Below, piece after piece: positions 2,334 to 62,331 of a DNA stretch of 64,000 bases. Numbering within the stretch: position 1 is the stretch's first letter; every line of letters starts with the position of its first letter. Location of the stretch: positions 62,001-126,000 of the forward strand of contig NZ_SCTW01000029.1 in assembly GCF_004322395.1 (NCBI RefSeq), written 5' to 3'. Position numbers and translations under genes: made by a program. Below the pieces are notes generated by a model. That model made no database searches and was not told the origin of the DNA. It was given only the letters and a program-made list of their open reading frames with translations. Source of the stretch: Methylobacter sp. Its GTDB lineage: Bacteria > Pseudomonadota > Gammaproteobacteria > Methylococcales > Methylomonadaceae.

Positions 2334-3506
2334 ATGTCTAGAGCAAACGATATACAACAGTTGTACGCACAAATGCGCGAATGGCGGCATCATCTGCACC
2401 GGTTTCCTGAAACTGCTTTTGAGGAAACCCAAACGGCGAAATTTATTGCCGATAAGCTGGCGAGTTTCGGCTTGGAAGTTCATCAAGGATTAGGCGAAAC
2501 TGGTGTTGTGGCTACGCTTACTGCCGGAAGCGGCGACAAAAAAATCGCTTTGCGGGCCGATATGGATGCTTTGTTTATTCAGGAGCAGAACTCTTTTGCC
2601 CACAAATCCTGCCACGACGGAAAAATGCATGCCTGCGGCCATGACGGCCATTCGGCGATGCTGCTGGGGGCGGCTTGCTATTTAGCCGAGCATCGCAACT
2701 TTAGCGGCACGGTGTATTTTATTTTTCAGCCAGCCGAGGAAGGGCGCGCGGGAGCCAAACGGATGATCGATGACGGCCTGTTTGAGAAATTCCCGGCCGA
2801 CTGCGTTTTTGGGTTGCATAATTTCCCCGATATTCCGCCGGGGCATTTCGCGGTTAAATCCGGCGCGATGATGGCGTCATTCGACTGTTTTGAAATTATT
2901 ATCGCTGGGCAAGCAACCCATGCCGCAATGCCGCATTTGGGCAATGACGCGATAGTTGCATCCGCCAAGCTGATTACCGCATTGCAGACCATTGTCAGCC
3001 GAACGGTTAATCCGATCGATCCGGCGGTAGTCAGCATTACCCAGATCCATGCGGGCAATACCTGGAATGCGCTGCCGGAATCGGTGCTGTTAAGAGGGAC
3101 TTTTCGCTGCTTTAGCAGTGAGGCTCAAAAAATCATTGCCGATAAAATCACCCGCTTGGTCAATGCTATCTGCGAGGGTTTTGAGGTCAGCGCAAAGATC
3201 AAATTCAATCCGGAAAATCCGGGCTATCCGGTGACTTTTAATGCGAAAGCGGAAACGGAACTGGCGCTACAAGTTGCGATGGCAGTGGCCGGAAAGGATT
3301 GTGTCGACCAACAACCAGCACTTTGCATGGGCTCGGAAGACTTTGCGTTTATGTTGCAGGAAAAACCGGGCTGTTATATCTGGATAGGCAACGGCTCTTC
3401 CGAAAACGGCTGTCTGCTGCATAACCCGCACTATGATTTTAATGACCGGATATTGCCGGTCGGCACGGCTTATTGGGTAAAACTGGTTGAAACGGTGTTA
3501 AGGTAA
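2334..3506 (+). CDS. M20 family amidohydrolase (HipO/AbgB-like N-acyl amino acid hydrolase)
   Basis: Cytosolic metallopeptidase-fold amidohydrolase, 390 residues, typical of the M20D subfamily (hippurate hydrolase, IAA-amino acid hydrolase, N-acetyldiaminopimelate deacetylase). Visible motifs are RADMDAL, the metal-binding HACGHDGHSA and the catalytic PAEEG, with an inserted dimerisation domain in the middle (about 185-300) and a C-terminal GSEDFAFM. Substrate specificity cannot be read from the sequence. It stands alone and converges on ribA, with a perfect palindrome between them. Confidence 0.88.
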   Translation: MSRANDIQQLYAQMREWRHHLHRFPETAFEETQTAKFIADKLASFGLEVHQGLGETGVVATLTAGSGDKKIALRADMDALFIQEQNSFAHKSCHDGKMHACGHDGHSAMLLGAACYLAEHRNFSGTVYFIFQPAEEGRAGAKRMIDDGLFEKFPADCVFGLHNFPDIPPGHFAVKSGAMMASFDCFEIIIAGQATHAAMPHLGNDAIVASAKLITALQTIVSRTVNPIDPAVVSITQIHAGNTWNALPESVLLRGTFRCFSSEAQKIIADKITRLVNAICEGFEVSAKIKFNPENPGYPVTFNAKAETELALQVAMAVAGKDCVDQQPALCMGSEDFAFMLQEKPGCYIWIGNGSSENGCLLHNPHYDFNDRILPVGTAYWVKLVETVLR

Positions 3507-3525
3507 TCAAGGCCTTAGAGTATTC

Positions 3526-3558
3526 AGATCTTCCAGGTTTTTAAAACCTGGAAGATCT
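3526..3558. terminator. Perfect 16-bp-arm palindrome between convergent genes
   Basis: Arms AGATCTTCCAGGTTTT (3526-3541) and AAAACCTGGAAGATCT (3543-3558) are exact reverse complements with one base between. It lies between the stop codons of the convergent M20 gene and ribA. The run of T/A at the centre rather than after the stem makes it an atypical intrinsic terminator. It could equally be a copy of a dispersed palindromic repeat that serves as a bidirectional terminator. Confidence 0.6.
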
Positions 3559-3561
3559 AAT

Positions 3562-4170
3562 TCAGCTCTTTTTCGGTTCAAACAGCATGTGCGCCATTTT
3601 TTTTGCTTTGGTTTTTAAATAACCGACATTGTCTTCGTGAGCCACGGCCTCGACCGGAATGCGGCCAGCCACGTTAATGCCGAGCTTTTTCAGCTCTTCT
3701 ATTTTCTTGGGGTTGTTGGTGATCAGTTCTATGGACTTTACGTTCAGGTTTTCCAGCATTAACGCAGCAATGCCGTATTCCCTTTCGTCGGCAAGATGGC
3801 CCAAATGGATGTTTGCATCGACGGTATCCATGCCTTGATCCTGCAAATTATAAGCCTGTAGTTTTTTCAATAAGCCGATGCCGCGCCCTTCCTGACGCAG
3901 ATAAATCAACACGCCGAAACCGGCTTTATCGATAATTTGCATCGCCATATCAAGCTGCTCGCCGCAGTCGCAACGCCTTGAACCTAATACATCGCCGGTA
4001 AAACATTCGGAATGGATGCGCACCGGCACATTTTCCTTGTCCGCGACATCGCCTTTAACCAGGGCTACATGCTCCTTGTCATCAATGGTATTGCTGTAAT
4101 AATGCAGTATAAATTCGCCGTGTTTGGTCGGGATCGGCGTCTGTACCAAATTTTCTAATTGTGGCTTCAC
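3562..4170 (-). CDS. ribA: GTP cyclohydrolase II
   Basis: First committed enzyme of riboflavin synthesis, converting GTP to 2,5-diamino-6-ribosylamino-4-pyrimidinone 5'-phosphate, formate and pyrophosphate. It is 202 residues, the length of stand-alone RibA (no DHBP synthase domain fused). The zinc ligands are visible as C56, C67 and C69 in ECFTGDVLGSRRCDCG, and the GTP-binding catalytic motif RQEGRGIGL is intact. It is separated from other rib genes, as often in gammaproteobacteria. Confidence 0.95.
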   Translation of the reverse strand: MKPQLENLVQTPIPTKHGEFILHYYSNTIDDKEHVALVKGDVADKENVPVRIHSECFTGDVLGSRRCDCGEQLDMAMQIIDKAGFGVLIYLRQEGRGIGLLKKLQAYNLQDQGMDTVDANIHLGHLADEREYGIAALMLENLNVKSIELITNNPKKIEELKKLGINVAGRIPVEAVAHEDNVGYLKTKAKKMAHMLFEPKKS

Positions 4171-4315
4171 TTAAATATAACTAATCCAAAAATTGACTGT
4201 ATTTTACCCAATTTGGCGGCTATCCAGTTAAAAAGTTTCATGCCGGTTGGGCCTTATGATTTCTAACAAAACGTATGATGTTTTTGTTTTTCCGCCTGGT
4301 ATAAAGACATCCGCT

Positions 4316-4368
4316 GTAGGGCATGCCGTGCGCGCCTTGGGAGCTAAGGCGCGCACGGCACGCCCTAC
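4316..4368. repeat. Palindromic repeat, GTAGGGC family, copy 1
   Basis: Near-perfect inverted repeat: left arm 4316-4338 beginning GTAGGGCATGCCGTGCG, right arm 4346-4368 ending CGGCACGCCCTAC, one mismatch and a 7-base loop. A close relative lies at 58397-58449. It sits between ribA and the convergent end of the methyltransferase gene. The rest of the 213-base ribA/methyltransferase gap is AT-rich with no gene seen. Confidence 0.85.
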
Positions 4369-4383
4369 GTATGAAATTCTCCG

Positions 4384-5001
4384 CTATTTTCTGGCTTCAA
4401 TCAGCTTGATAATGTCGCCGCTACGTTCATCGACATTCACCGAGGTAAAAGCGCAGGCTTTAACGTTTTTAACAGTGTTTCTGTTAATATTGGCTCCGAA
4501 TAGACTGACAACGACAGGGTTAAGCAAGTTCATGACCGCTGCAACCATGCGGTTTGAACTTATCACATGTTCCAGCAATAAAACCTGTCCGCCCGGCTTG
4601 CAGACACGGTAAAGCTCTTTCAATCCTTTTATCGGTAACGGCACTGAACAAAACACAAAAGAGCAAATAACCGTATCGAAACTGTTATCGGCAAAATATA
4701 ACGACTGAACGTCCATCAGCTCCAGCTCAACATTGACATTTTTCCTGTCGCGTTTTTTCTCCGCCTGCTTTAGCATTTGCCCGCTAAAATCAATCGCGGT
4801 TATTCTGGCATCCTTGGGGTAATAATCGAAATTTTTGCCCGTCCCTACGCCAACTTCAAGAATATGATGGCCTTCGACTTTGGCCCATAATCTCTTCCTC
4901 CAGCTTCTAAAAAACAGTCCTTCCATGACCGCTTCCATGCCTTCAAAATAGGGAGCAATCCGGTCGTATCGTTTTCTAATGGCGGCGCTGTCTGGCTTCA
5001 T
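4384..5001 (-). CDS. Class I SAM-dependent methyltransferase (UbiE/PmtA-like)
   Basis: 205 residues with a Rossmann-type methyltransferase fold: the SAM-binding glycine motif EVGVGTGKNF (about 48-57), acidic motif II in ITAIDFS, and a post-I VICSFVFCSV segment. The N-terminal stretch YDRIAPYFEGMEAVME resembles phospholipid N-methyltransferases and UbiE relatives. The substrate could be a quinone, a phospholipid or something else. No neighbouring gene helps decide. Confidence 0.8.
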   Translation of the reverse strand: MKPDSAAIRKRYDRIAPYFEGMEAVMEGLFFRSWRKRLWAKVEGHHILEVGVGTGKNFDYYPKDARITAIDFSGQMLKQAEKKRDRKNVNVELELMDVQSLYFADNSFDTVICSFVFCSVPLPIKGLKELYRVCKPGGQVLLLEHVISSNRMVAAVMNLLNPVVVSLFGANINRNTVKNVKACAFTSVNVDERSGDIIKLIEARK

Positions 5002-19382: not shown

Positions 19383-22300
19383 ATGAATAAGAAAAAATCC
19401 AAAACGCATGTCCATCTGCCCAGCACAAGAAGGATAGTGCAGACGATATTATCATTGGGATTGCTGGTTACCGCTTTCGGTACACAGGTTCATGCGCTGA
19501 GCCTGACGGTTCAAAGCCGAAATGGAAACACGGCGATTCCTGACTATAAATACATCATCAACATCGACAACACCGGCACCACAGAGCAGCGTAGCCCCGC
19601 GGATGGTTGTTCGCCTGCTAATCCCGCATATCCCGGGACGGTGTCCGATCCAGGCAGACCGTGCAACTGGGTCTCGATCACCGGCGTACCCGGCTCCAGC
19701 CCGATCTATACGCAGGGCGATCAGAGCGACATCGGCACTGTCAACTTGCCCCCTGGAAAATACCTGATTTCCGTATTGGCGGACGGTTACAAACTCGACG
19801 GCGTGCACATCACTGCACCGGTGGATAACGTAACTGTCCAGTTGCAGCCTAACGATGCATTGCCAAGTGCTACGATACAGGCCGCAGTATTCGAGGATAT
19901 TTCGCCGACCAACGGCGCGCCGGATGTGCCCGCGGAGCGCGGTTTGGCGGGGTTCGTCGGCCATATCAACGACTACATCGGCGAAGTAACCACGGATATC
20001 AACGGTAATCCACTCTGCGCCGAGTATGATGCTGGCGGCAATGCTACTCCAGGTACCGGCGGTATCTGCGTGAGTAAGTGTTACATCGTCGTGAACGGTG
20101 TCGACACAGGCACTGTTCCTCCCGTTGACGCGGCCGGCCATTGTCCGGTTACCGACGCGTCCGGAAATACCGTCGAAGGCAAGCTCAAGATACCCAACCT
20201 CGGGCCTAACCGCTATGCGCTTTCCATGACGCCGCCAAACGGCTCCAATTGGCAGCAAACGACAACGCTGGAAGGCAACCTGGATTGGGATACCTGGGTC
20301 ATGGAGGGCGCGACCGGTCTGGATACGGAGTTCGTCGTCGCGGGCGAACCCTTCCCGGCCTCAATTTTCGGTTTTGTACAATCGACAAATACACTATCGG
20401 GCGGTAACGGATCGATTTCCGGCGTCATTGACGCGGTAAAAATCTACGTTCCAACCACGGGCGGCATCGGAGGATTCCCGGGAACAATTTGGGGAGGCTT
20501 GGCCGGTGCAAAGATCGATGGCCCGGTAAAAAAACCCTGGATTGCCCTGACCGACTTGACGAACGGCGATACCGCAGTCTGGATAGGTCAAGGCGACGCC
20601 AACGGTCATTTTACGATTCCGAATGTCCCTGAGGGCAACTATACCTTGACCTGGTGGGATTCCAACTTGAACTATATCCTCGATCTCGTTCAGGTCACTG
20701 TGGGCTCCAATGAAAGCGTCGACATGGGCGTACTGCCTCTGACCGGCTGGTGGACCAAGTTTGAAGGTTACGTCTATTACGACACCAACAAGAACGGCAA
20801 AAGAGACTCTGGCGAAGCCGGTTTGGTTGGTTATCCCGTCGTCATGAAAAAGCGAGAAAATTCGCTGATGGACCGCGGTGCCGTAGGTACGACGACCAGA
20901 CCTGATGACCCAAGTACCCTCGACATCGATGAGAGCGGGTACTACGCGATGGAAAACGCCTACCCGATGACGCAATGGCTTGTTATGGAGGCTTATGACG
21001 ACCTGCACTACAGCACCGGCATCACTTACCAGGCCGACAATCAGCCGAGCGAAACGACCGTACCTGGAGAGGGCGTGGACGTCAGCGTGTTGCCCATCAT
21101 CGGCCTGTCGGGACGTCTGGACTGGGGCAAACACGGCTACGAAGGCGGCACCAACGGCGGCATAGTCGGCACGGTCAGTTACGACACCACCCGTAATGAA
21201 ATTGATCCGCGCTTTGCGGCTGTGGAGGCTTGGCAGCCGGGCGTTTCCAACTTGCCGGTGAATCTTTACGCGCCCGTTCCTTGCGGTACTAGTGCCAGCG
21301 CACCTTGCGATGCAAGCGGTCGCTATGAGTTAGAGGCAAACGGCGCTTTTAAAAAAGCAACTGTAAGTCCGATACAGACGTACGTCACCGAAACCTGGCA
21401 GCGGCCTAGCGGCTGCGTAGCACGCGATGTCGAAGGCAACCCTCTTGCCGGTCAGCAGGTTTTACCAACAAATCCCGATGCAGAATGTCTGGAAGGCCCG
21501 CTGATGGGTGTACAGTTCGGCCCGATGCCCGACAATCCGGCAACCCCGACCAACTTCGGCGCGGCGGTGGACGGCAACTACGGCTTTGGGGGACTTAGCC
21601 CCGGCGATTACCTGGTCGAAGTCGAGGTCCCGAACGACACACTCGGCCGGCCGCTGTACAAGTTTACCAAGGAAGAAGACATCAATATCGCCAACGGGGA
21701 CACCTTTGTGCCTCAAATCCCGCCGCCGGAATGCGCCGGTCCGCTGCATACCGTCGACGTGGCCGGTCACGGCACCGACAACTACGGCCCGATTGTCGGA
21801 GACGGCAATACCGTACCGCTTGGCGTTACCGTGCCCGCATCAACCCCGACGGTAAATTCGACCTTCGTCGGCATCGGCGGCAGCCCATCTGAAGGCCAAC
21901 CGAAGCCCCTGTGCAACATGAAGCTGGTACACGTCAGCAATGGGCGCTCAGTCGCACCGTTGTTTACTGTCTTCACCGATGTGCCTCTGCCGGGCCGTTT
22001 CTGGGGACTCATCGTCGACGACCTCAACTTCGCGTCCGATCCGAAGGCTCTGAATTACGGAGAAAAGGCCGGCATACCGTTTGCTCCGGTGGGTATCTAT
22101 GACTGGTCCAACCAGTTGATTCATACAGTCGAGTCGGATTTCAACGGCTTATTCGACGTGCTGTTGCCTTCCACCAACCGTATCAATTGCCCGACACCTT
22201 CCGGCGTCTGCGCCAATCTCTACCGTTTAGTCGGTAACGATCCGGGCGTTCCAGGCAAACTGAACCCGAACTACCATCCGGAGTTCCGCACCATTTCGGC

Positions 22301-25232
22301 AGAGTTCGAGGCCTTCCCAGGCTTAATCGTCCCGGCCGACTTGGCGCCTGCACAGGTCGGTGTCTCGGTTCAACTGCCGGGCGGCCAGGTGGCTCAGCCC
22401 TTGAGTTGCCCTCTCAATATTTACAATGGCCCAAATGTCACGCCGGCTAATAAGCTGGTGCCTGAGTTGATGGCCGTGTCGACACCTGTTGTTACGAGGC
22501 CTTCCGGGAGTGGAACCGTCGATGTCACGATTCAGGGCGACAACTTCGGCAGCGCCAAGACAGGGCCGGCCAATGTTTATCTTGATAGTGTTCCTATTAC
22601 GACAACAGCATGGACTTCCACGTCAATTACCATGAGGCTGACCTCTGGCGCGGCTATCGGGCCGCACCAGCTCACCATCGTCTCGGCCAATGGCCAGAAG
22701 ACGGTGAACGGCCTGACCTTCCATGTGCTTGGCGGCAGCTATAACCCGACTGTCATCACTGTGGGGCCTGGAATCAATACCCTAACAAATCCACACGCAA
22801 TCCAAAGCGCATTGGATTCGGCAGCCAACAACTCACAACCAAAGTTGGTGGTGGTTTATCCCGGTGTGGCGGACGCCAATCCGCGGATTAATCCACGCGG
22901 CGCTTATTACGAAAACCTGATCATCCATTCGCCGGTGAAACTGCAAGGCGTAGGGCCTGGGGGGATACGGAGCGACGGCAGCACAGTCGCGGGTACTATT
23001 ATCGATGGCAGCGCCTTCGCCGGCGATACCCAGCAAGCGACCGACTGGCGCACTACGGTTGCTAATCTGACCTGGGTGGGAACCCAGACGGTATACGAAG
23101 GCGCCGTGATTACCGTGTATCCGGAAACGAGGAATCAGTTCCGTTCGACGTTCAGAGCCAGTATCGATGGCCTGGATCTGCGCGGCGGCGACCAGCAGGG
23201 CTTTCCCACCAACATCGACCAGATCGGCGGAACGCCTACAGGCTTGCCGCCTAATGTCGTGACGCAAGGCGGAGCCATCTTCGTCAACGGCTACGCCCAT
23301 TATCTGCAGGTCACCAATAACGTGATCCAGAATAATGGCGGCGCCTACGGTACGGTGCGCATCGGTACGCCGAATCTGCAGGGCAATAACGCTAACGAAG
23401 GCACCGACCAGCACAACGACAACATACGCATTGCCAATAACCGCATTATTGCCAACGGCGGTACCAACCTAGCGGGAGCTGTTGGACTGTTTGCCGGAAC
23501 CAGCAACTATGAGGTGGCCGGCAACGACATTTGCGGCAATTTTTCGGCGGAGTACGGCGGAGGTATCACTGCCTATGGCCTCAATTACGATCGTACGGAA
23601 GATTATGACAACGCCACCAACTTCGGCGGCAAGATTCACCACAACCGCATCTACCTCAATCGTTCCTATGACGAGGGCGCCGGCATCATGATCGCCGGGG
23701 CACTGCCGGCCAACCCAGGAAGTCTTTCAACCGGGTCAGGGCCGGTCGCCATCTACAGCAATCTCATCCAGGGCAACCTGGCCAATGACGACGGCGGCGG
23801 CATACGCTTTCTGCAAGCGGCGACGGACTGTGCGCCGGAGCGGGATACATACACCCCGTGCAGAAGCGATGTTTATAACAATATGATCGTGAATAACGTG
23901 TCGACCCACGAAGGCGGCGGTATCAGTCTCAACGATGCGCCGGCTGTTCGTGTGTACAACAACACGATCATGAAGAACATCACCACCGCTACAGCCGTCA
24001 CCAGCATCGGTTTTCCGGCACCGGCAGGCCTGTCCACCTCATTGAACAGCGCTCAGTTGCAAACTGCGCTTGGAAATCCGGTAACCAACTGGAGCAATCC
24101 TCTGCTGTTCAACAACATCTTCTGGGACAACCGTGCAGGTGCGCGCTCCGGCGGTACCGTCACCGGTATCGGCGCGGCGGGTGACGCCACGGCGGTAAAC
24201 CTGTGGGATTTGGGTGCGACGGATACCAGTGGCTTATTGTCTCCGACCAACTCTATTGTGCAGCAAGACCCGGTACAGTATCCGTACATTAGCTCACCGA
24301 CTAATGCCAACACAGATCCGCTGGTCGTCACACCTTACGACACAATATTGGATTTTGCGGCGTGGCGAACCAATCCGGCGTTCCTTGGCGCCATTCTGGT
24401 GTCCGCAGACTTACCGCCTACACTCCTGGGAGACTATCACCTGCTAGGAGGATCTACGGCCATCAATTTTGGTGCAGGTAGCAAGAGCGATGTAAGTGCG
24501 CCGGCCCTCGATATCGACGACGGCATCCGTACCGGACTGCCCGACGCCGGTGCCGATGAACAAGGTATTGTAGCCTCCGGACCGGGCGGTGGTGCAGGCG
24601 GCGGCAGCACAGGACCAACGCTACCGGCGCTGACGGTGTTGGATAACTTCAACCGTGCTAATTCCAATACTCTGGGAGTGAATTGGAGCCAGATTATTAT
24701 TTCCGGTAACGCAGCAATACGTGTTAACAGTAGCCAGGCGGTTGATTTGCAGGTCCCTGGTGCCGCGTACTGGAACGGTGCTGGCAACAGCTTCGGCGTT
24801 AACCAGGCGGCGGCCTTTACATTTGCCAACACGACGCTGAACAACGCAGCACTGGTGCTAAAAGCAAGCGGTGGATCCGCATCCTTACCAGCGAACTTCA
24901 TCCGAGTGCAGTACCTGACAACGGATGATGGACGCATCCAGATACAAACGACCACCAACGGTAATACGCAGTCTCCAAACTACGTTACACGAGCCAAGTT
25001 CACCAAAGGCGTCAGCTTCGCTAACGGCGATACGCTGAGTGCTGTCGCCCGGGCAAATGGCACGGTGGAAGTCTATAAGACCGCAGGCTCCACAACTTCG
25101 CTGGTCGGTAGTGTGATCATTCCGATCAATGGGAGTGGTGCATGGACGCAAGGCGCAAGCGGTGGCCGGATCGGCATGCAACTCCCGAGTGGCGCGCGGG
25201 TCGACAACTTTAGCGGCGGTACGGTGCCATAG
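19383..25232 (+). CDS. Giant secreted surface protein: SdrD/Cna-B-like, IPT/TIG, right-handed beta-helix, ConA-like C-terminus
   Basis: 1949 residues from the ATG at 19383, which has AGGAG eight bases upstream. A TTG just before it is not needed. A Sec signal peptide ends near VHA (about residue 39). The first ~1000 residues are Cna-B/carboxypeptidase-regulatory-like beta modules; one at about 460 has a calcium-loop-like DTNKNGKRDSGE. An IPT/TIG domain follows (about 1020-1115), then a pectate-lyase-like parallel beta-helix (about 1125-1600) with NN/GGG turn motifs such as NNVIQNNGG, and a concanavalin-like domain (about 1747-1949). It has no sortase or autotransporter signal. It heads the MCO operon and is likely the scaffold or matrix component. 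Its function is not known. Confidence 0.85.
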   Translation: MNKKKSKTHVHLPSTRRIVQTILSLGLLVTAFGTQVHALSLTVQSRNGNTAIPDYKYIINIDNTGTTEQRSPADGCSPANPAYPGTVSDPGRPCNWVSITGVPGSSPIYTQGDQSDIGTVNLPPGKYLISVLADGYKLDGVHITAPVDNVTVQLQPNDALPSATIQAAVFEDISPTNGAPDVPAERGLAGFVGHINDYIGEVTTDINGNPLCAEYDAGGNATPGTGGICVSKCYIVVNGVDTGTVPPVDAAGHCPVTDASGNTVEGKLKIPNLGPNRYALSMTPPNGSNWQQTTTLEGNLDWDTWVMEGATGLDTEFVVAGEPFPASIFGFVQSTNTLSGGNGSISGVIDAVKIYVPTTGGIGGFPGTIWGGLAGAKIDGPVKKPWIALTDLTNGDTAVWIGQGDANGHFTIPNVPEGNYTLTWWDSNLNYILDLVQVTVGSNESVDMGVLPLTGWWTKFEGYVYYDTNKNGKRDSGEAGLVGYPVVMKKRENSLMDRGAVGTTTRPDDPSTLDIDESGYYAMENAYPMTQWLVMEAYDDLHYSTGITYQADNQPSETTVPGEGVDVSVLPIIGLSGRLDWGKHGYEGGTNGGIVGTVSYDTTRNEIDPRFAAVEAWQPGVSNLPVNLYAPVPCGTSASAPCDASGRYELEANGAFKKATVSPIQTYVTETWQRPSGCVARDVEGNPLAGQQVLPTNPDAECLEGPLMGVQFGPMPDNPATPTNFGAAVDGNYGFGGLSPGDYLVEVEVPNDTLGRPLYKFTKEEDINIANGDTFVPQIPPPECAGPLHTVDVAGHGTDNYGPIVGDGNTVPLGVTVPASTPTVNSTFVGIGGSPSEGQPKPLCNMKLVHVSNGRSVAPLFTVFTDVPLPGRFWGLIVDDLNFASDPKALNYGEKAGIPFAPVGIYDWSNQLIHTVESDFNGLFDVLLPSTNRINCPTPSGVCANLYRLVGNDPGVPGKLNPNYHPEFRTISAEFEAFPGLIVPADLAPAQVGVSVQLPGGQVAQPLSCPLNIYNGPNVTPANKLVPELMAVSTPVVTRPSGSGTVDVTIQGDNFGSAKTGPANVYLDSVPITTTAWTSTSITMRLTSGAAIGPHQLTIVSANGQKTVNGLTFHVLGGSYNPTVITVGPGINTLTNPHAIQSALDSAANNSQPKLVVVYPGVADANPRINPRGAYYENLIIHSPVKLQGVGPGGIRSDGSTVAGTIIDGSAFAGDTQQATDWRTTVANLTWVGTQTVYEGAVITVYPETRNQFRSTFRASIDGLDLRGGDQQGFPTNIDQIGGTPTGLPPNVVTQGGAIFVNGYAHYLQVTNNVIQNNGGAYGTVRIGTPNLQGNNANEGTDQHNDNIRIANNRIIANGGTNLAGAVGLFAGTSNYEVAGNDICGNFSAEYGGGITAYGLNYDRTEDYDNATNFGGKIHHNRIYLNRSYDEGAGIMIAGALPANPGSLSTGSGPVAIYSNLIQGNLANDDGGGIRFLQAATDCAPERDTYTPCRSDVYNNMIVNNVSTHEGGGISLNDAPAVRVYNNTIMKNITTATAVTSIGFPAPAGLSTSLNSAQLQTALGNPVTNWSNPLLFNNIFWDNRAGARSGGTVTGIGAAGDATAVNLWDLGATDTSGLLSPTNSIVQQDPVQYPYISSPTNANTDPLVVTPYDTILDFAAWRTNPAFLGAILVSADLPPTLLGDYHLLGGSTAINFGAGSKSDVSAPALDIDDGIRTGLPDAGADEQGIVASGPGGGAGGGSTGPTLPALTVLDNFNRANSNTLGVNWSQIIISGNAAIRVNSSQAVDLQVPGAAYWNGAGNSFGVNQAAAFTFANTTLNNAALVLKASGGSASLPANFIRVQYLTTDDGRIQIQTTTNGNTQSPNYVTRAKFTKGVSFANGDTLSAVARANGTVEVYKTAGSTTSLVGSVIIPINGSGAWTQGASGGRIGMQLPSGARVDNFSGGTVP

Positions 25233-25307: not shown

Positions 25308-26699
25308 ATGAGCAATAACAAACTTTCCAACCACGGCCGCCGACGTTTTCTGAAACTTGCCGGCAGCGGCCTCGCAATCACCGGCGGCGCCGGACTGCTG
25401 CGGCGCCAACTCTTGCCTATCAGCGACGCGATGGCGGCTCCGGACGCTCCGGCCAACTTATTTTTCGTCGGTACCGACGGCTGGATCTCTTTACCGGCGA
25501 CCCCGACGATACCCACGTTCCACCCCGACGTGTATGCCCCGACGAACTTTACGACTTATATCTTCGGTTTCCGCAACATGACCGGTATTCCTCCGATGGA
25601 TCCTGCGGCGCCGGCGAACATGAATCCGCTGGTAATCGGGCAAAAAAACAAAGCCCAGCACAGCGCTCCTCTGTTCTGGGTCGATGAATTCACCGGCAGC
25701 AACACCTTCCGGCTGGACCTGCTGAACGTCGGCCTGGCGCAACGGCCCGACCTGACCGATTCGCACTCGATACACTGGCATGGTTTCCGCAACGTCATAC
25801 CGTTTTTTGACGGGGAGCCGACCGGTTCCTTCGCCGTTCCGGTAGGCCGCGTGTTTCGCTATATCTTCAAACCGCGCGACCCCGGCACCTATATGTTCCA
25901 CTGCCACGTAGAAGACGTCGAGCATGTACATATGGGCATGACCGGCCTGGTCTTCGTACGGCCACGGCAAAATGGACAGTCTTTCGGCGGTTTCACCAAG
26001 TTCGCCTACAACGACGGCGATGGCTCTACCGGCTATCACCGCGAGTTCGCAATGCTTCTGACCGAAGTATGGGCCGAATCCCACTGGTGCGACGCCCATA
26101 TCCAACTGCCGGAATGGAGCGACTACAAGGTGGATTTTGCTTTGCTCAACGGACGGGTCTATCCAGATACCCTGGAACCCAATTCTCCGTTCAATGCGGC
26201 GACTTCCACGCATGCCTATGACACACAACGGCAAGCGGACGGCGATCTGGTCGTTCCGGCACGCCCCGATCTGCAATACCAGCCGCTGTCGGCCCTGGTG
26301 ACCTGCAACGCAGGCGAACGGGTGCTGCTGCGTTTCGCCAATCTTGGCTTCAAGGAAGCCTCGATGACGCTAACCGGCATCAAGATGAAAGTGGTGGGCA
26401 AGGACGCGACCCCGATGCGCGGCTTCAATGCGGCCGGAACGGCGCGCACCGGAGCGGATACCAGCTATGAGACCAACACGCTGTCTTTCGGCGCCGGGGA
26501 GAGCTTCGATGCAATCTTTACCGCGCCGCCGCACTCAGGCGGCTCAGGACCTGACGTCTACATCCTGTACAACCGCGCCTATAACCGTTCGGACAATCAA
26601 ATTAATGGCGCCGGCGGCCAGCGTACGGAAATCCGGGTGTATCCTTCCGGAACCATTAGCGCGCAGACCATACCCAACGAAAATCCTACGGTCGCCTGA
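25308..26699 (+). CDS. Multicopper oxidase-like protein A, Tat-exported, carries type 1 site and half of the trinuclear ligands
   Basis: 463 residues from the ATG at 25308, seven bases after AGGAGA. An upstream in-frame start at 25254 lacks a site. A twin-arginine signal (RRRFLK, residues 11-16) points to export after folding with copper. The first cupredoxin region holds H153-S-I-H156-W-H158-G and H198-C199-H200, then H206 and M211. This is a full type 1 set (H153, C199, H206, M211) plus four trinuclear histidines. The C199 loop is HCHx5Hx4M, two residues longer than the usual HCHx3Hx4M. The second cupredoxin region (about 330-430) has no HxH motif (ASMTLTG where HPFHLHG is expected). The missing four histidines are present in the next gene. 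Confidence 0.85.
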   Translation: MSNNKLSNHGRRRFLKLAGSGLAITGGAGLLRRQLLPISDAMAAPDAPANLFFVGTDGWISLPATPTIPTFHPDVYAPTNFTTYIFGFRNMTGIPPMDPAAPANMNPLVIGQKNKAQHSAPLFWVDEFTGSNTFRLDLLNVGLAQRPDLTDSHSIHWHGFRNVIPFFDGEPTGSFAVPVGRVFRYIFKPRDPGTYMFHCHVEDVEHVHMGMTGLVFVRPRQNGQSFGGFTKFAYNDGDGSTGYHREFAMLLTEVWAESHWCDAHIQLPEWSDYKVDFALLNGRVYPDTLEPNSPFNAATSTHAYDTQRQADGDLVVPARPDLQYQPLSALVTCNAGERVLLRFANLGFKEASMTLTGIKMKVVGKDATPMRGFNAAGTARTGADTSYETNTLSFGAGESFDAIFTAPPHSGGSGPDVYILYNRAYNRSDNQINGAGGQRTEIRVYPSGTISAQTIPNENPTVA

Positions 26700-26722
26700 C
26701 GACTCGCCAAACGGAGTTCACT

Positions 26723-28099
26723 ATGAATAAGTCAACTTTTAAACAGCTGTCACGGAAACTGGCAACACCGCTGGCGGTCGCCATATCAAGCCTGCTTACC
26801 GGCCTGCCAACGATGGCCATGGCCGCCCCCTTGGGTGTTGCCTGCACCAGCGGAGCCGGCACTAATCCGAGCTTCAATCTTACTACCCAAATTGGGGACA
26901 TCCAACTGCCCGACGGTAATACCATGTATATGTGGGGTTACGCGTTGCAGGGTCAGGGCTTCCAACATCCAGGCCCGGTGTTGTGCGTCAACCAAGGCGA
27001 TACCGTGACCGTCACCCTCACCAACAACTTGCCGGAAAAAGTCTCGATCATGTTTCCAGGGCAAACCGACGTTCTGGCGAATGGGGTTCCCGCCCAGCCG
27101 GAATTCGACCCTCCACTGCCAAACGCCGGCAGCCGTGCAATCTCATTGACTACGACAGCTCCCGCACAGGCCGCCAGTATTCCAGGCGTGGTCCAATACA
27201 GCTTCGTCGCAAACCAGCCCGGCACCTATATTTACGAGTCGGGCACCAACCCGCAGAAGCAGGTGCGCATGGGGCTGTTTGGCACGCTGATCGTGCGTCC
27301 GACCGGAACAGGCGGCGGCCCCGACCACCTGTACAATCGCGAGGATAGCCGTTTTACTACCGCAGGCAATTGGGATGAGGAGTTCCTTGTCCTGCTTTCG
27401 GAGATCGATCCCTACCAGCACTGGGCGGTTGAAGCCAATCCGGCAGCCAACTTCAACTTCAACAACTACAAGCCGCGCTATTGGCTTATTAACGGACGCG
27501 GCTTCCCCGACAGCATCGCCGACAATAATGCGGCGTTCCTGCCGACCCAGCCCTATGGGGCCTTGGCGCGCGTTCATCCGTACGGCGCTCCGGCACACCC
27601 TTATCCCGGCGCAATTAGGTATTTGAACCTCGGTTCGGAAGATTACCCATTCCACCCGCATGGGAACAACGGTTCAGTGGTCGGCCGCGACGGCCGTTCA
27701 CTCGAGACGGAGGCAGGGGATGACGTGTCTTTCGAGAAATTTGTCGTGCCGGTCGGGCCGGGGCAGACCTGGGATGTGATGTTTAGTTGGCACGATGCGG
27801 AGGACTACAATATCAGAAACCCGAATGATCCCGTGGGTAGCCCAGATAACAACCCAGTGGATGTCAATATTCCTCAGATCGCCAACCAGTTTTTCGGGCA
27901 GTTCTACAGCTTCAGCCCCTATCTTGGCGTGCAGGGGCAGCAGCCTCCCAACTGGTCGACGCTTAACACCTGCGGCGAGTACTACATCATTTCGCATAAT
28001 CATGCCCTGAACCAGATTACTTCATGGGGTGCACTCATGACGGGGCCGATTACCTATATGCGCGTCGATCCACCTCTACCCAATTCGTGCGCTCAGTAA
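26723..28099 (+). CDS. Multicopper oxidase-like protein B, lacks type 1 copper site but retains four trinuclear histidines
   Basis: 458 residues with a GGAG site six bases upstream and a Sec signal peptide cleaved near MAMA/AP (about residue 34). The N-terminal cupredoxin has lost its ligands: the HxHG position reads M110-F-P112-G, and the HCH position reads GTYIYESG. The C-terminal cupredoxin keeps Y308-P-F-H311-P-H313-G and H425-N426-H427. Relative to HxxHxH and HCH, the type 1 His is Tyr and the type 1 Cys is Asn, but all four trinuclear histidines remain. It follows protein A by 23 bases. Alone it cannot be a normal MCO. With A it would complete one. Confidence 0.85.
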   Translation: MNKSTFKQLSRKLATPLAVAISSLLTGLPTMAMAAPLGVACTSGAGTNPSFNLTTQIGDIQLPDGNTMYMWGYALQGQGFQHPGPVLCVNQGDTVTVTLTNNLPEKVSIMFPGQTDVLANGVPAQPEFDPPLPNAGSRAISLTTTAPAQAASIPGVVQYSFVANQPGTYIYESGTNPQKQVRMGLFGTLIVRPTGTGGGPDHLYNREDSRFTTAGNWDEEFLVLLSEIDPYQHWAVEANPAANFNFNNYKPRYWLINGRGFPDSIADNNAAFLPTQPYGALARVHPYGAPAHPYPGAIRYLNLGSEDYPFHPHGNNGSVVGRDGRSLETEAGDDVSFEKFVVPVGPGQTWDVMFSWHDAEDYNIRNPNDPVGSPDNNPVDVNIPQIANQFFGQFYSFSPYLGVQGQQPPNWSTLNTCGEYYIISHNHALNQITSWGALMTGPITYMRVDPPLPNSCAQ

Positions 28100-28134: not shown

Positions 28135-30894
28135 ATGTTAATATCGACAAATATACTTAAAAAATTTAAACGCAAAGCACTACCTCTGACAATAGCAAGC
28201 GTATTAGGTTCCGGCCTGTATCAGGTACCGGCCAATGCCGCGTTGCCGACGAGCACGGCCTGCACCGGCACGGGAACTGTCAGCTGTGAACTGTGGGCAA
28301 AGGCGGGGACTGCAACGCTCACGACAGGCGTTACAGTCCCCGTCTGGGGCTATGCGGCTACGGCTGCAGACCCGGCCGGCTTGCCCGGCCCTGTGCTGGT
28401 CGTTAACCAGGGCGACACGGTCACCGTAACTTTGCACAACACATTATCCGAGCCGACAGCGCTGTTGTTCCAGGGTCAGAGCTTGCCACCGGATACGGCC
28501 GGGGCAGCGGCGGGAGGGACCAAGAGCTACACCTTCACGGCTTCAAATCCCGGCACTTATTTGTACGAGGCCGGGCTGCTGGAAAACACGCAGCACCAAC
28601 CCGCGATGGGATTGTATGGCGCGCTAGTGGTGCGGCCTGCGGCTTCGAACCAAGCCTATGGCGCGACTACGGTTTTTGATGATGAGGCCCTGGTGCTGGT
28701 CAGCGAGGTCGATAGTGCTTTGAACAACAGCGCGAACCCGGCCGTGTTTGATATGCGCAAATTCGCGCCCAAGTATTTCCTGATCAACGGCAAGGCCCAT
28801 CCGGGGCCCGATCTGGTTACGCTTCCGGATCCGGAAGTTACAGCTTATCCGACGACCGGTTTTAACCTGCTGCTGCGTTACGTTAATGCCGGGCTTAAAC
28901 ATCATTCGATGGCGCTGTTGGGGCTGAGGCAGAAATTTATCGCCAACGACGGCAGTTTGCTTCTGCACCCCCGCGACGGCGTGTCCGAAACCATCGCTCC
29001 CGGCCAGACAGTTGATGCCATTACCACGATTCCGCCCGCTGTAGTGCCTGATAGCAGGTTTGCTCTATACGATGCCGGCATGAGCCTGAATAACAGTAAT
29101 GCCGCCGGCATGGGCGGAATGCTGACTTTCGTGGCATTGGGCGGAGACGGCATCCCGCCGACGCCGGGAACGCCTCCAGGGCCTCCGGCGCCTCCGGGCG
29201 ACACGACCGGGCCCGTGACCAGCGGCGTCACTATGACGCCAAATCCCAGCAATGCGGGCACTGTAGCCTTAAGCGCGACAGGCAATGACGCGAGCACCGG
29301 TAACAGTAATGTGGACGCAGCCGAATACTTTATTGATGCAGCTCCATCCCCTTCTGCCGCAACCCGTGGCGTAGCCATGACTGTAGCGTCGCCTGGCGCG
29401 GTAGCGATTGCCACTGCCTCCATCACCGCACCGGCACAAGGCGCTCACGATATCTTGGTGCGCAGCCGCGACGCCGCCGGTAACTGGGGCGCGTTCGCTC
29501 CTGCCGTCAGCCTCATACAGGACGTAACCGGGCCGTCGACGACAGTCACGCCCATCGCCTCCAACGGCCTAAATGGCGTTAATTCGAGCACAGCTGCGGC
29601 CCGTATTGTTGCGGCGGCAACGGATAACCTGACCCATGTCAGCGCCGTCGAGGGCTATATCGACAGCAATACCACAGCGGTGTTCCCGTTCGTCCCGAGC
29701 GATGGCAGTTTCAACAGTCTATCGGAAAATGCCTACGCCGATATCCCGCTGTCAACTGTAACGGCGCTGAGCAGTGGCGATCATGTTGTTCATGTGAGAG
29801 CCAGGGATGCCGCCGGCAATTGGGGCGCGTTTACCGACACCAACAACTTGCTGGTCGACAAGACCGCGCCTAGCGTAACTGGCGCTGTGACCGCTACCCC
29901 GAACCCGGCCTTCTCCAGCTTCGTACTTTCCGCCAATGCGACCGACGCGGCCCCAACTTTGGGCATTGCCGGCGGCGAGTGGTTCGAAGGAACAGATCCA
30001 GGTATAGGCCGTGGCCATCCAATGACGGCAACGGGCGGGACGACGGGGCCATGGACTGTCACCTCTAACGAGAATGCGCGGTCATTGAACTGGGCAGAGG
30101 GGAATCATACAGTGAATGTTCGCGCCAGGGATGCCGCCCAAAACTGGAGTGCCGGCACAGTCAGCGGAACCGTAACGGTGCAATCGCCGATCTACTTCTC
30201 GACGCTTGGTAATACCAATCCGCCGGGTGTGGCAGGTACGGCCGACGATGCGGATATCTACAACTGGAACGGTACGGCGTTCAGCCGGACAGTTGATGTC
30301 ACCACAATCGCCAATCCGCTACCAGCCGGCGCAAACGTTGACGGAATGCAACGTGTAGACGATACCCATTTCTATCTTTCCTTCACGGGCGACACGGCTT
30401 TGCCGGGTGTCGGAACGGTTCAGGATGAAGACATCGTCTTTTACAACAACGGCACCTGGTCGGTGTACTTCGATGGCACCGCTCGCGGGTTGACTGCCAA
30501 CAATCTAGATATCGATGCGTTCACCATCGACGGAAGCAACATCTACTTCTCGACGACCGGCAACACCAATCCGCCGGGCGTGGGAGGCACGGCCGACGAT
30601 GCGGATATCTACCGCTGGAACGGTACTGTGTTTAGCCGGGCGGTTGATGTCACCACTATCGCCAATCCGCTGCCTGCCGGCGCCAATGTCGATGGTCTGA
30701 AATTCGTGGATGCGACGCACTTCTATCTCTCCTTTAACGGAAACGTAACCATCGCGTTGCCTGGCCCCGACTTGACGGTACAGGATGAAGACGTCGTGTA
30801 CTACAACAACGGCACCTGGTCGGTATACTTCGATGGCACCGGTAAGGGGCTGACTGCCGGCAATCTCAATATCGACGCCTTCGACATCCCGTAG
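28135..30894 (+). CDS. Multicopper oxidase-like protein C, no copper ligands, with Ig-like and duplicated C-terminal modules
   Basis: 919 residues from the ATG at 28135 (AGGAG nine bases upstream; a longer frame to 28024 overlaps gene B and has no site). A Sec signal peptide ends near PANA (about residue 35). Residues ~36-330 are two cupredoxin folds clearly related to protein B, but the ligand positions read LLFQGQ, LYEAGL and HHSMALLG, so no HxH or HCH pair remains. Then come a proline-rich hinge (PGTPPGPPAPPG), three Ig-like beta modules with repeated RDAAGNWGAF/DKTAP motifs, and a 117-residue unit present twice in tandem at the end. It is probably a structural, non-redox member of the complex. 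Confidence 0.8.
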   Translation: MLISTNILKKFKRKALPLTIASVLGSGLYQVPANAALPTSTACTGTGTVSCELWAKAGTATLTTGVTVPVWGYAATAADPAGLPGPVLVVNQGDTVTVTLHNTLSEPTALLFQGQSLPPDTAGAAAGGTKSYTFTASNPGTYLYEAGLLENTQHQPAMGLYGALVVRPAASNQAYGATTVFDDEALVLVSEVDSALNNSANPAVFDMRKFAPKYFLINGKAHPGPDLVTLPDPEVTAYPTTGFNLLLRYVNAGLKHHSMALLGLRQKFIANDGSLLLHPRDGVSETIAPGQTVDAITTIPPAVVPDSRFALYDAGMSLNNSNAAGMGGMLTFVALGGDGIPPTPGTPPGPPAPPGDTTGPVTSGVTMTPNPSNAGTVALSATGNDASTGNSNVDAAEYFIDAAPSPSAATRGVAMTVASPGAVAIATASITAPAQGAHDILVRSRDAAGNWGAFAPAVSLIQDVTGPSTTVTPIASNGLNGVNSSTAAARIVAAATDNLTHVSAVEGYIDSNTTAVFPFVPSDGSFNSLSENAYADIPLSTVTALSSGDHVVHVRARDAAGNWGAFTDTNNLLVDKTAPSVTGAVTATPNPAFSSFVLSANATDAAPTLGIAGGEWFEGTDPGIGRGHPMTATGGTTGPWTVTSNENARSLNWAEGNHTVNVRARDAAQNWSAGTVSGTVTVQSPIYFSTLGNTNPPGVAGTADDADIYNWNGTAFSRTVDVTTIANPLPAGANVDGMQRVDDTHFYLSFTGDTALPGVGTVQDEDIVFYNNGTWSVYFDGTARGLTANNLDIDAFTIDGSNIYFSTTGNTNPPGVGGTADDADIYRWNGTVFSRAVDVTTIANPLPAGANVDGLKFVDATHFYLSFNGNVTIALPGPDLTVQDEDVVYYNNGTWSVYFDGTGKGLTAGNLNIDAFDIP
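30190..30891 (+). repeat. Tandem duplication, 351-base period, coding
   Basis: Two adjacent copies of 117 codons (30190-30540 and 30541-30891) at the 3' end of the protein C gene. Each starts IYFST-GNTNPPGV and contains DVTTIANPLPAGANVDG and NNGTWSVYFDGT. The nucleotide identity is high but not complete, and the second copy has a small insertion (NVTIALPGPDL), so the duplication is not brand new. Confidence 0.9.
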
Positions 30895-31087: not shown

Positions 31088-31690
31088 ATGAAAAAGCTAT
31101 CCCTTTTTGCCGGCTTCGGCCGCAGATCCATCCTGTCCGTATCTGCAACAGGCGCCATGGCTTGTCCCCGTATAGCCGAGACCGAATCGAACCGGTCCAG
31201 GCACAAGCGGGCGGAACCAAGATTCCGCTATTTGGGGCGCATCCTTGCCGCCTTGGGCGCTATCGCCTTAATAATTGGGGGCGGATGGTATTACCAACAG
31301 CGCAGCATCACCGTACCGCCGGCAGCGGTTCAGGCATCAACCGGGTACATATCCAACGATCAATTGGAGGCCCAATACGGCGTTCGCATCACGCTCATCG
31401 GGGTTTCGGCAGTGGGCGGAATCGTCGATTTCCGCTACAAGATTGTCGATCCGGCAAAAGCCGCAGCATTGCTCCATGATCCTGAGAATGCGCCTGTCCT
31501 GACTGCGGTGGATAGCGGCTTGACGCTATCGCCGACCCAAATGGGCAGCAGGCACCATAGCCAGATGGGCATGAAGAAAGGCACCGCTCCGTTTACCTTC
31601 TATCCCAATGTCCGCAATGCCGTAAAAGCCGGCACTCCTGTTTCCGTAGCATTCGGCAAGATCAAGGTCGAACCGATAGCCGCGCAATAA
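31088..31690 (+). CDS. Membrane-anchored protein of unknown function in the MCO operon
   Basis: 200 residues, AGGAGA eight bases before the ATG. A basic N-terminal region (about 1-45) precedes one membrane helix (LGRILAALGAIALIIGGGWY, about 49-68). The rest is a ~130-residue domain outside the membrane. That domain starts with YGVRITLIGVSAVGGIVDFRYK, interrupted here only by my domain boundary, and contains a His/Met-rich stretch RHHSQMGMKKG that could bind copper. I recognise the domain as a recurring type but cannot name its function. Its position between the oxidases and the protease suggests a role in copper delivery or anchoring, which is inference only. Confidence 0.7.
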   Translation: MKKLSLFAGFGRRSILSVSATGAMACPRIAETESNRSRHKRAEPRFRYLGRILAALGAIALIIGGGWYYQQRSITVPPAAVQASTGYISNDQLEAQYGVRITLIGVSAVGGIVDFRYKIVDPAKAAALLHDPENAPVLTAVDSGLTLSPTQMGSRHHSQMGMKKGTAPFTFYPNVRNAVKAGTPVSVAFGKIKVEPIAAQ

Positions 31691-31712: not shown

Positions 31713-34361
31713 ATGAAGACTGTATTGCTGATTGCGATAGGCCTCGCGCTGGCCTGCCATTTACCTGCTGTCCCTGCGGCAACCTCGGACCAGGGAAAAA
31801 TTTCGTCCGAGGTGCAGTCTGCGGTCGCTGCTGCATCCTTAACACAAGAAATTTCCGTGATCGTGTATTTGAAGGACCGGGCCGATTTGGCGTCTTTCCG
31901 CCGCCTGCACCGCACCGAACGGCTCAAGGGCGTAGTCAATGCGTTACGGAATAAGGCCGAGCTCTCTCAACGCAGCCTGAAATCTTTTCTGGAATTGCGC
32001 CGCGGTCAAGGACGGATCGGCATGTATAGGCCGTTTTGGGTATTCAACGGCTTCTCCGTTACCGCCACTCCGAGCGTAATCCGGGAACTGTCCGCCCGAG
32101 CCGATGTGGAGCGGATTGAAGCGGATGAAATCAACATCGTGCCGGCGGCAATGCCTCCCGAGCCCAATCTTTCCTTGATAGGAGCGCCTGATGTCTGGAA
32201 CTTGGGTTTCTACGGGCAGGGGGTAGTGGTAGCCAACCTGGACAGCGGTGTGGACAACACGCATCCCGACCTCGCCAACCGGTGGCGGGGCGGCTCGAAC
32301 AGCTGGTACGATCCCTACGCACAGCATGCAACACCTTATGATCCGACCGGCCACGGCACCTGGACGATGGGGCTCATGGTCGGCGGAGATGCCGGTGTGA
32401 CTTCCGTTGGTGTAGCGCCGGGAGCTCAGTGGATCGCCGCCAAGATTTTCAATGACAGCGGCACCGCCACGGCAACCGGAATCCATCAGGCCTTCCAGTG
32501 GATTCTGGACCCTGATGGAAATCCTGCTACCGTTGATGCACCGCAGGTAGTGAACAATTCTTGGTCCTATGGATTTCCGGGTTGCAATCTGGCCTTTCAA
32601 CCGGATCTTCAGGCGTTCGTATCCGCAGGGATTGTCCCGGTGTTCGCGGCGGGGAACTATGGTCCGGGCGGCAGCACTAGCGTCAGTCCGGCCAATTACC
32701 CGGAAGCTTTTGCGGTCGGCGCTACAAACAATCTTGATCAACTCATTGCATACAGCGGAAAAGGGCCCTCGGCCTGCGGCGAAGCCTCGACGGTTTATCC
32801 GGAACTCGTGGCGCCGGGCATCAATATTTCAACCACCGATCTTTTCGGTTTTTATACCAGCCAATCCGGAACTTCCGTAGCAGCCCCGCATGTCGCCGGC
32901 GGTCTGGCGTTGCTGCTCAGCGCCTATCCGGAGCTGACGGCGGCGCAGCAACGCGATGCCTTGCTTTTGTCCGCGGTAGACCTTGGAACTCCGGGGCCCG
33001 ACAACAGTTTCGGCTACGGCCGTCTCGATCTACCGGCCGCCTATGACTGGGTGGTGCTCAACGCCGGCAACCCGCCTCCGCCGGTTGATGCCTCCGGGCC
33101 CGACACGAGCGGTGTCAGCGCAAGTCCAAATCCCAATAACGGGACTCTGGGCTTCGACATCAATACGCCCGCCGTACGGGTCGCTGCTACGGTGGCCGAT
33201 CCGGTCATCAACGGCTTGCAGTCCAATATCAGAAGCGCCGAGGTCTTCGTCGACTCGGTGGGAAGCAATGGCTCCGGCTTAGCATTTATCGCCGGCGACG
33301 GGGCTTATGACAGTCCGTCTGAAGCCGCCTACGCAGATATCCCTCTGACGACCGTCGCCCAGCTTGCCGAGGGTTCACATGCCCTTTACGTGCACGGTCA
33401 GGATTCTGCCGGAAACTGGGGACCAGTGAGCAGCGTGGCGTTGATCATCGACAAGACCCCCCCTATCGTCAACAACGTCACTGCGACTCTGGCGGACACG
33501 ACGATCAATCTGACCGCTACAGCCGCCGATTCGTCTCCGGGCAGCGTCGATGCAGCCGAATGGTTCGAAGGCAATGATCCGGGCTTAGGGCTGGGTCATT
33601 CGATGTCGGTGTCGGGCGGCACTGTTGCAGCAACTATCGATGCCGGAATCTGGGCGCCCGGCAGCCACACGCTGTTCGTGAGGGCAAGAGATAGCGCTGG
33701 AAATTGGAGCGCCGCGGTATCGGCGAACATCACCATAGCAGCGCAGAACGTCATTTTCACTGACGGCTTCGAGTCGGGGAACTTCACGGCCTGGAACGGA
33801 GGAGCTACCGGCGCCCGTATTAGCGTTAATAGCGCCGCAAAGATGACCGCAGGCGGAATCTACGGCATGCAGGCCACTCTCGGAGGCGGCACCGCGCCGG
33901 GCTACGTTGCCGATGGATCGCCGACCCTTGAAAAAAGCTACCACGCACGGTTCTACTTCAACCCGCACAGTACCAATCCGGGAAGCGCGCAGGTGACGAT
34001 TTTCTCCGGCCTGAATGCAGCCGGCACGACTATCTTTCAGGTTCAATTCAAACGCAACGGCAGCAGCTATCAAGTGCGCGGCGCCGTATTGAGATCGGGC
34101 GGGACGACCTATACGAACTGGTTTGCCGTCGCCAACAACGCCGCACATCCCATCGAAATAGCCTGGCAATCGGGTATGTCCGCGTCCTTCCAGTTTTACA
34201 CCGACGGGACGCTTAAACAGACGCTGGGCACCCTAAACACCAGCGCCTATCTGTTGGATACGGTACGGCTGGGAACCTCTGCCGGTCTTGTTAATGCCGC
34301 CAGCGGAACCTTGTATTTCGATGCTTTCGCATCGACGAGGACTACTGTCATCGGGCCGTAA
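31713..34361 (+). CDS. Subtilisin-like serine protease (S8) with propeptide, Ig-like modules and ConA-like C-terminus
   Basis: 882 residues, Sec signal peptide (cleavage near VPAA, about residue 24), inhibitor-I9-like propeptide (about 40-130). The S8 catalytic domain has the complete triad: D177 in NLDSGVDNTHPDL, H214 in GHGTWT and S388 in GTSVAAPHVAGG. The C-terminal half has two Ig-like modules (DSAGNWGPV, DKTPP, AAEWFEG-DPG) that closely match those of MCO protein C, then a ~200-residue beta domain beginning IFTDGFESGNFTAW. It is the last gene before a hairpin terminator. It is probably the maturation or shedding protease of the surface complex, by context. Confidence 0.9.
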   Translation: MKTVLLIAIGLALACHLPAVPAATSDQGKISSEVQSAVAAASLTQEISVIVYLKDRADLASFRRLHRTERLKGVVNALRNKAELSQRSLKSFLELRRGQGRIGMYRPFWVFNGFSVTATPSVIRELSARADVERIEADEINIVPAAMPPEPNLSLIGAPDVWNLGFYGQGVVVANLDSGVDNTHPDLANRWRGGSNSWYDPYAQHATPYDPTGHGTWTMGLMVGGDAGVTSVGVAPGAQWIAAKIFNDSGTATATGIHQAFQWILDPDGNPATVDAPQVVNNSWSYGFPGCNLAFQPDLQAFVSAGIVPVFAAGNYGPGGSTSVSPANYPEAFAVGATNNLDQLIAYSGKGPSACGEASTVYPELVAPGINISTTDLFGFYTSQSGTSVAAPHVAGGLALLLSAYPELTAAQQRDALLLSAVDLGTPGPDNSFGYGRLDLPAAYDWVVLNAGNPPPPVDASGPDTSGVSASPNPNNGTLGFDINTPAVRVAATVADPVINGLQSNIRSAEVFVDSVGSNGSGLAFIAGDGAYDSPSEAAYADIPLTTVAQLAEGSHALYVHGQDSAGNWGPVSSVALIIDKTPPIVNNVTATLADTTINLTATAADSSPGSVDAAEWFEGNDPGLGLGHSMSVSGGTVAATIDAGIWAPGSHTLFVRARDSAGNWSAAVSANITIAAQNVIFTDGFESGNFTAWNGGATGARISVNSAAKMTAGGIYGMQATLGGGTAPGYVADGSPTLEKSYHARFYFNPHSTNPGSAQVTIFSGLNAAGTTIFQVQFKRNGSSYQVRGAVLRSGGTTYTNWFAVANNAAHPIEIAWQSGMSASFQFYTDGTLKQTLGTLNTSAYLLDTVRLGTSAGLVNAASGTLYFDAFASTRTTVIGP

Positions 34362-62323: not shown

Positions 62324-62331
62324 TATCAACA

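Follow-up and report, generated by a model that had tools for sequence, protein, structure and literature searches.

Type C two-domain multicopper oxidases are defined by type 1 copper ligands located in domain 1 and have been described as trimers, according to PMC13151041. Six-domain multicopper oxidases (MnxG and MofA type, and ceruloplasmin) carry one trinuclear site, the other sites having been lost, and the bacterial six-domain enzymes have the type 1 copper in domain 2 and the trinuclear site between domains 2 and 3, as stated in PMC3600357. In the literature that we covered, all ligands of a multicopper oxidase come from one kind of chain, and a search of open PMC titles and abstract openings, with subscription papers outside its scope, turned up no case of a multicopper oxidase with its trinuclear site shared out among the products of different genes; the papers listed include some that mention heterodimeric laccases, mostly fungal.

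Here we describe a locus in which the ligand complement of a multicopper oxidase is divided over two adjacent genes, A and B, that are followed by a third gene of the same family, C. The window (i.e., the whole 64,000-nucleotide stretch of Methylobacter sp. DNA that was analysed) carries on its + strand, in this order, a giant repeat protein, A, B, C, a small protein and a subtilase, with the coordinates and copper-binding motifs given below.

19383..25232, + strand: giant secreted repeat protein (SdrD_B, TIG and carboxypeptidase regulatory-like by Pfam), directly before A
25308..26699, + strand: gene A, 463 aa, Tat-type N-terminus (RRRFLKL), two cupredoxin domains
25764..25781, + strand: HSIHWH of A, with H153 as the type 1 His and H156/H158 as trinuclear ligands (roles by homology)
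25899..25940, + strand: HCHVEDVEHVHMGM of A, with H198, C199 (type 1 Cys), H200, H206 and M211 (axial) (roles by homology)
26723..28099, + strand: gene B, 458 aa, two cupredoxin domains
27644..27661, + strand: YPFHPH of B, with Y308 at the type 1 His position and H311/H313 trinuclear by homology
27995..28003, + strand: HNH of B, with H425/H427 trinuclear by homology and N426 at the type 1 Cys position
28135..30894, + strand: gene C, two site-less cupredoxin domains (about residues 45-335), then Ig-like repeats; the sister of B in the tree
31088..31690, + strand: small protein after C, with an apparent hydrophobic stretch and no Pfam family above cut-off
31713..34361, + strand: S8 subtilase with inhibitor_I9 propeptide (Pfam), downstream of the small protein

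Pfam Cu-oxidase (multicopper-oxidase) models match A, B and C. Domain 1 of A holds a type 1 site and half of a trinuclear site and its domain 2 is free of ligands; domain 2 of B holds the other half and its domain 1 has no site. A sequence-only reading of this DNA had named the residues listed above and proposed that A plus B supply exactly the one type 1 site and eight trinuclear histidines of a working multicopper oxidase, a set that neither protein reaches alone. All of these residues are present, with the motifs exactly at the positions given, and the 4+4 division is kept over 81-84 aligned sequences. The same reading was right about the pair of A and B, and its extent fell one gene short: the unit is larger, including C as a third, degenerate subunit, and is widespread. 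Elsewhere in the window, an AT-rich, foreign-looking segment (61808-63708) holds two ORFs whose third-position GC is 0.21-0.23, vs. 51% GC for the window.

Conservation of the ligands was assessed over the relatives described below. H153, H156, H158, H198, C199, H200 and H206 of A are each found in 84 of 84 aligned A sequences, the axial M211 in 83 of 84 (Leu in the remaining one), and both E202 and E205 are Glu in all 84. The conservation in A is partly by construction, because the patterns with which most relatives were found cover five of its ligands (H153, H156, H158, H198 and C199). B played no part in the search, and its H311, H313, H425 and H427 are each found in 81 of 81 sequences that have letters at these positions (82 B sequences aligned). 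The type 1 Cys position of B is never Cys among the 82 sequences (N 55, S 21, V 2, D 2, I 1, gap 1), and the type 1 His position is Y in 45, H in 14, F in 10, V in 4, I in 3, L in 3, A in 1, T in 1 and a gap in 1. Stray HxH motifs occur in domain 2 of A in 2/84 sequences, and stray HxH or HC motifs in domain 1 of B in 7/82 and in C in 3/77, none of them common to the family. The ligands that remain do not vary although the family is deeply diverged (mean pairwise identity 0.56 for A and 0.53 for B), and they are therefore under selection.

A scan of genome contigs with an alignment of seven A sequences confirmed 333 relatives; the best 80 of these 333, representing 79 loci, were combined with loci L024-L027 into the 83-locus set used throughout. 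These loci, i.e., those of the best 80 of 333 plus the four added ones, are mostly from Chloroflexota and Actinomycetota, with some from Proteobacteria. Within the set, B follows A in 81 of 83 loci, both exceptions (L053 and L100) having a contig end just after or within A, and C comes third in 76 of 83. C is missing in seven loci: in six (L045, L053, L081, L085, L098 and L100) the contig ends near or within the preceding gene, and in the seventh (L080) a 1005-aa ORF towards the contig end gave no score as C. No A-B fusion was seen in the 83 loci, and in the 76 full ones each of the three genes is an ORF of its own; A and B overlap by 4 bases in 11 of 80 loci, based on a start-codon heuristic. 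In one locus (L038:2710-3725) B is split into two ORFs of 210 and 128 aa, by assembly error or decay. C carries long extra sequence beyond its core in most loci; that of L111 measures only 323 aa, about the size of the two-domain core.

Among 151 relatives surveyed, A had a match at 1e-10 in 10, and the long form was found in seven loci of six genomes, including the window's own, with B and then C in each. Widespread A without B, which the sequence-only reading had regarded as evidence against a shared site, was looked for in the 41 genomes behind 42 loci, a sample chosen because A is present: each of the 46 A matches that reach 260 bits shares its contig with a B match of 300 bits or more, and a 47th, weak A match without B (125 bits, genome G579) is the single-chain relative L152 and not an orphan A. 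In a phylum sample of 398 genomes, with up to four first-look candidates per genome scored, A was found in 2 genomes and B in the same 2; a partial B match in a further genome (G533) is a single-chain oxidase and not a lone B. A-B-C is a conserved, widespread unit.

To describe the gene neighborhood, families were defined as BLAST clusters over the 83 loci, on either side of the unit, and one representative of each was Pfam-scanned; the loci differ in length. The cluster of the small protein has members in 51 of 83 loci, mostly directly after C, with conserved stretches Girv, vtA-GG-vd-Ry and Dp-KA, and it is possible that this protein is an assembly or copper-handling partner of the trio. A large ORF precedes A in most loci whose contig reaches upstream, and the giant upstream repeat protein could possibly act as a surface scaffold; large ORFs lie downstream in other loci too, where the Pfam scan covered the window's subtilase only. 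A CopC-CopD family (by its scanned representative) is found in 20 loci, and 6 loci hold a cytochrome c family. Histidine kinases (28 loci) and response regulators (32 loci) make up two further families, both of them common ones that may be present by chance in some loci. As for export, twin-arginine motifs were sought in the N-terminal region with a loose regular expression and were found in 78 of 83 A, 12 of 81 B and 5 of 76 C sequences. The A's of L024-L027 show no such motif and have, by eye, Sec-like leaders. The proposed export of A and B by different routes (Tat vs. Sec), as predicted from their leaders, appears to extend to most relatives.

In a tree of 84 sequences, A, B and C each form one clade, with B and C as sisters (100/99), and the distances among A's and among B's correlate at 0.93 over 77 trios. 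The ligand columns were compared in an alignment of 84 rows that includes ten single-chain relatives and 20 each of A, B and C. The ten single-chain relatives have the domain-1 set of A in the same chain (Leu at the M211 column in nine) together with His at the H311, H313 and H427 columns of B, and a gap at the H425 column. In the 20 A rows, His is absent from the H311/H313 columns and the H425/H427 columns are gaps. The domain-1 set is wholly absent in 17 of 20 B and 18 of 20 C rows; the other five rows (three B, two C) come from L024, L026 and L027 and retain a single His of the set, at the H198 column, except that one of these B rows has a second at H206. The single-chain L152 (546 aa, 2752-4392 on the - strand), from the genome of the Candidatus Aquidulcis locus L099, carries all ligands on one chain, including the four domain-2 His of B, and falls beside A in the tree (98/81); it lies next to a cupredoxin-like gene that stays below the Pfam cut-off, and the operon's small protein has a weak homologue nearby. 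The position of L152 beside A with a full set, and the sisterhood of B and C, would mean that a single gene first gave rise to A and to a common ancestor of B and C, which later split into these two; this is the simplest reading of a tree with an unfixed root and moderate supports. The same ligand split is also found in short pairs of adjacent genes (L122-L127) in relatives of the window genome, with about 300-345 aa per protein and the B-like gene (sB) before the A-like gene (sA), and in a diverged short pair, L129 (L129/L153). No third cupredoxin gene was seen beside the short pairs in the three surroundings read (L028, L029 and L035). In the tree the short pairs group separately from A-B-C, at weak support (84/75), and a second, separate invention of the split is therefore possible.

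The model that we consider probable is a type C-derived, pseudo-threefold A-B-C heterotrimer with one four-copper site where domain 1 of A meets domain 2 of B (A1-B2) and with C in a structural role. Specifically, the ancestor of A, B and C would have been one type C two-domain oxidase, forming a homotrimer with three identical sites between a domain 1 and a domain 2. After the duplications, A would have kept the domain-1 half (the type 1 copper and four His), B the domain-2 half (four His) and C neither. The three proteins would then assemble outside the cytoplasm, one of each, so that a single four-copper site could be loaded at the contact of A1 with B2, and the contacts made by C would be structural. 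The type 1 copper of A would take up the electrons, and O2 would be reduced at the trinuclear cluster shared with B; A and B would have to touch and neither should work alone.

Covariation and predicted structures bear on the A1-B2 contact. For covariation, 76 trios (effective number 51) were compared with a null of 100 simulations along the tree with site-specific rates, looking at twelve domain pairs and several cut-offs. A1-B2 accounts for 57 of the top 200 inter-chain pairs, 3.2 times the expectation and a value reached in 0/100 simulations, for 31 of the top 100 (1/100 simulations) and for 18 of the top 50 (3/100); a first run without a null had given 58, 32 and 21, respectively. The first two covarying pairs join A 172 with B 445 and with B 439, pairs between A 170-172 and B 434-445 recur among the first 40, and several of the first pairs lie near H425/H427 of B. 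The strength of the pairs is no greater than from phylogeny alone (mean of the top 50, 0.267 in the real data vs. 0.297 simulated), so that the covariation speaks for A1-B2 by location only and weakly favors this contact.

The co-fold of A with B that the sequence-only reading had suggested was modeled with AlphaFold2 on natural in-frame read-through chains of L107 (TGA read as Trp), i.e., as covalently linked single chains, from alignments of 18 rows for A-B and 15 for A-B-C; a shallower alignment was replaced by a deeper one, and an alignment with separate C rows was dropped because, judging by the invariant columns, these rows seemed placed on B. Confidence was low (pTM 0.65 for A-B and 0.52 for A-B-C), with pLDDT below 50 at or next to the copper loops of the A-B model (residues 161-166, 743-784 and 794-808), and the A1-B2 contact was not shown. 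By Foldseek, the high-ranking matches of the A-B model include factor V/VIII, ceruloplasmin and Mnx chains (TM by query 0.44-0.51, mostly at 8-11 A), and its match to the factor VIII heavy chain (TM 0.63 by target, 7.9 A) suggests that the model packs domain 2 of A against domain 1 of B, following the chain order, rather than A1 against B2. The A-B-C model as a whole matches ceruloplasmin poorly (TM 0.22-0.25, about 24 A), and no six-domain chain fitting the whole was found among the 50 matches listed (TM by query 0.22-0.23, 22-27 A); one unit of it fits 3g5w, the blue copper oxidase of N. europaea (TM 0.74 by target, 2.6 A). Taken together, the read-through co-folds gave no confident complex and, if anything, lean against an A1-B2 contact.

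Alternatively, A and B might share one copper site with C standing outside the ring as a surface anchor or scaffold, in an AB or other stoichiometry. Domain 2 of A with domain 1 of C, and domain 1 of B with domain 2 of C, the contacts that the heterotrimer model expects of C, are not enriched in the covariation of the 76 trios (about at or below the null), the short sB-sA pairs have the same split and apparently no third cupredoxin gene in the surroundings read, and the long further sequence of C in most loci, Ig-like in the window, would suit an anchor. However, C is the sister of B, has kept the two-domain core and stands third in 76 of 83 loci, the C of L111 is little more than that core, and two-domain oxidases are described as trimers in PMC13151041; we consider this alternative unlikely, if still worth weighing. 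Less likely again, and improbable in our judgment, is that the two proteins have separate sites, A carrying electrons on its type 1 copper, next to a remnant or dinuclear site, and B acting as a copper helper or chaperone with a four-His site of its own. Judging from the fold matches, A1 does not lie against B2 in the AlphaFold2 chains, as such a reading would have it, but the four His of B and the ligands of A stay together in more than 80 loci, the single-chain relatives hold both halves at matching alignment columns, and two independent sites would have no need of exactly complementary half sets. That A, B and C are decaying paralogues with no oxidase function, serving as structural cell-surface proteins, fits the four of six domains that are without a site but is hardly credible given that the remaining ligands are invariant at identities as low as those of A and B.

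If the heterotrimer model holds, a natural and widespread split would be a clean system in which to study the assembly of a trinuclear copper cluster between different proteins, the delivery of copper to partners that are exported by separate routes (Tat and Sec), and the conversion of homotrimers into single-site enzymes. Further, A-type or B-type genes that are annotated alone as oxidases would be inactive if expressed singly. A manganese-related role was not adopted: the sole hint is the title of the metagenome-assembled genome of L048 (Mn-Methylococcaceae MnB_9), a guess, and the axial Met and Glu202/Glu205 do not settle the substrate.

Comparison with known systems places A-B-C closest to the type C oxidases. 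The best PDB sequence match of A is 3g5w (E 8.3e-11), which we take to be a type C two-domain multicopper oxidase; the best matches of B are copper nitrite reductases, not type C oxidases. Copper nitrite reductases are not known to have an HCH/eight-His trinuclear set, and the NCBIfam Cu_nitrite_red model scores A at 28.9 and B at 32.6 bits vs. a cut-off of 296.3; despite the best PDB matches of B, a nitrite reductase identity is ruled out by the HCH motif and the 4+4 His. As in type C enzymes, each of A, B and C has two cupredoxin domains (by Pfam, and by the fit of one modeled unit to 3g5w), and the type 1 ligands of A lie in domain 1 in all 84 sequences, within the HxxHxH and HCHx5H motifs; the likeness to two-domain oxidases with the trinuclear site between subunits, noted before, fits the ligand split of A and B by analogy. 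Type C chains, in contrast, carry all ligands and form a homomeric trimer, whereas A is without the domain-2 set, B without the domain-1 set and C without both, the halves being on different paralogous chains next to a third, ligand-free one; because its chains are incomplete, we set A-B-C apart from type C as a variant, and A as a lone homotrimer is ruled out by its lack of four of the eight His.

The single-chain L152 shares with A-B-C the domain-1 set of A and the four His of B but has them in one gene instead of three, and the short sB-sA pairs share the division of ligands over two genes but are shorter and in reversed order. Like the six-domain oxidases described in PMC3600357, A-B-C totals six cupredoxin domains; unlike these single chains, it consists of three. 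In contrast to the bacterial kind as described there, the type 1 site is in domain 1 of A and the other half in domain 2 of B, so that a split MnxG/MofA-type enzyme is ruled out, the type 1 domain being the wrong one of the pair. We lean, by a small measure, towards the more demanding view that A-B-C is an obligate heterotrimer, a pseudo-symmetric ring of what are, judging by their leaders, mostly one Tat and two Sec subunits, with a single O2 site at one of its three contacts and a split that was perhaps invented twice. If true, A-B-C would be a multi-chain counterpart of ceruloplasmin-like evolution.
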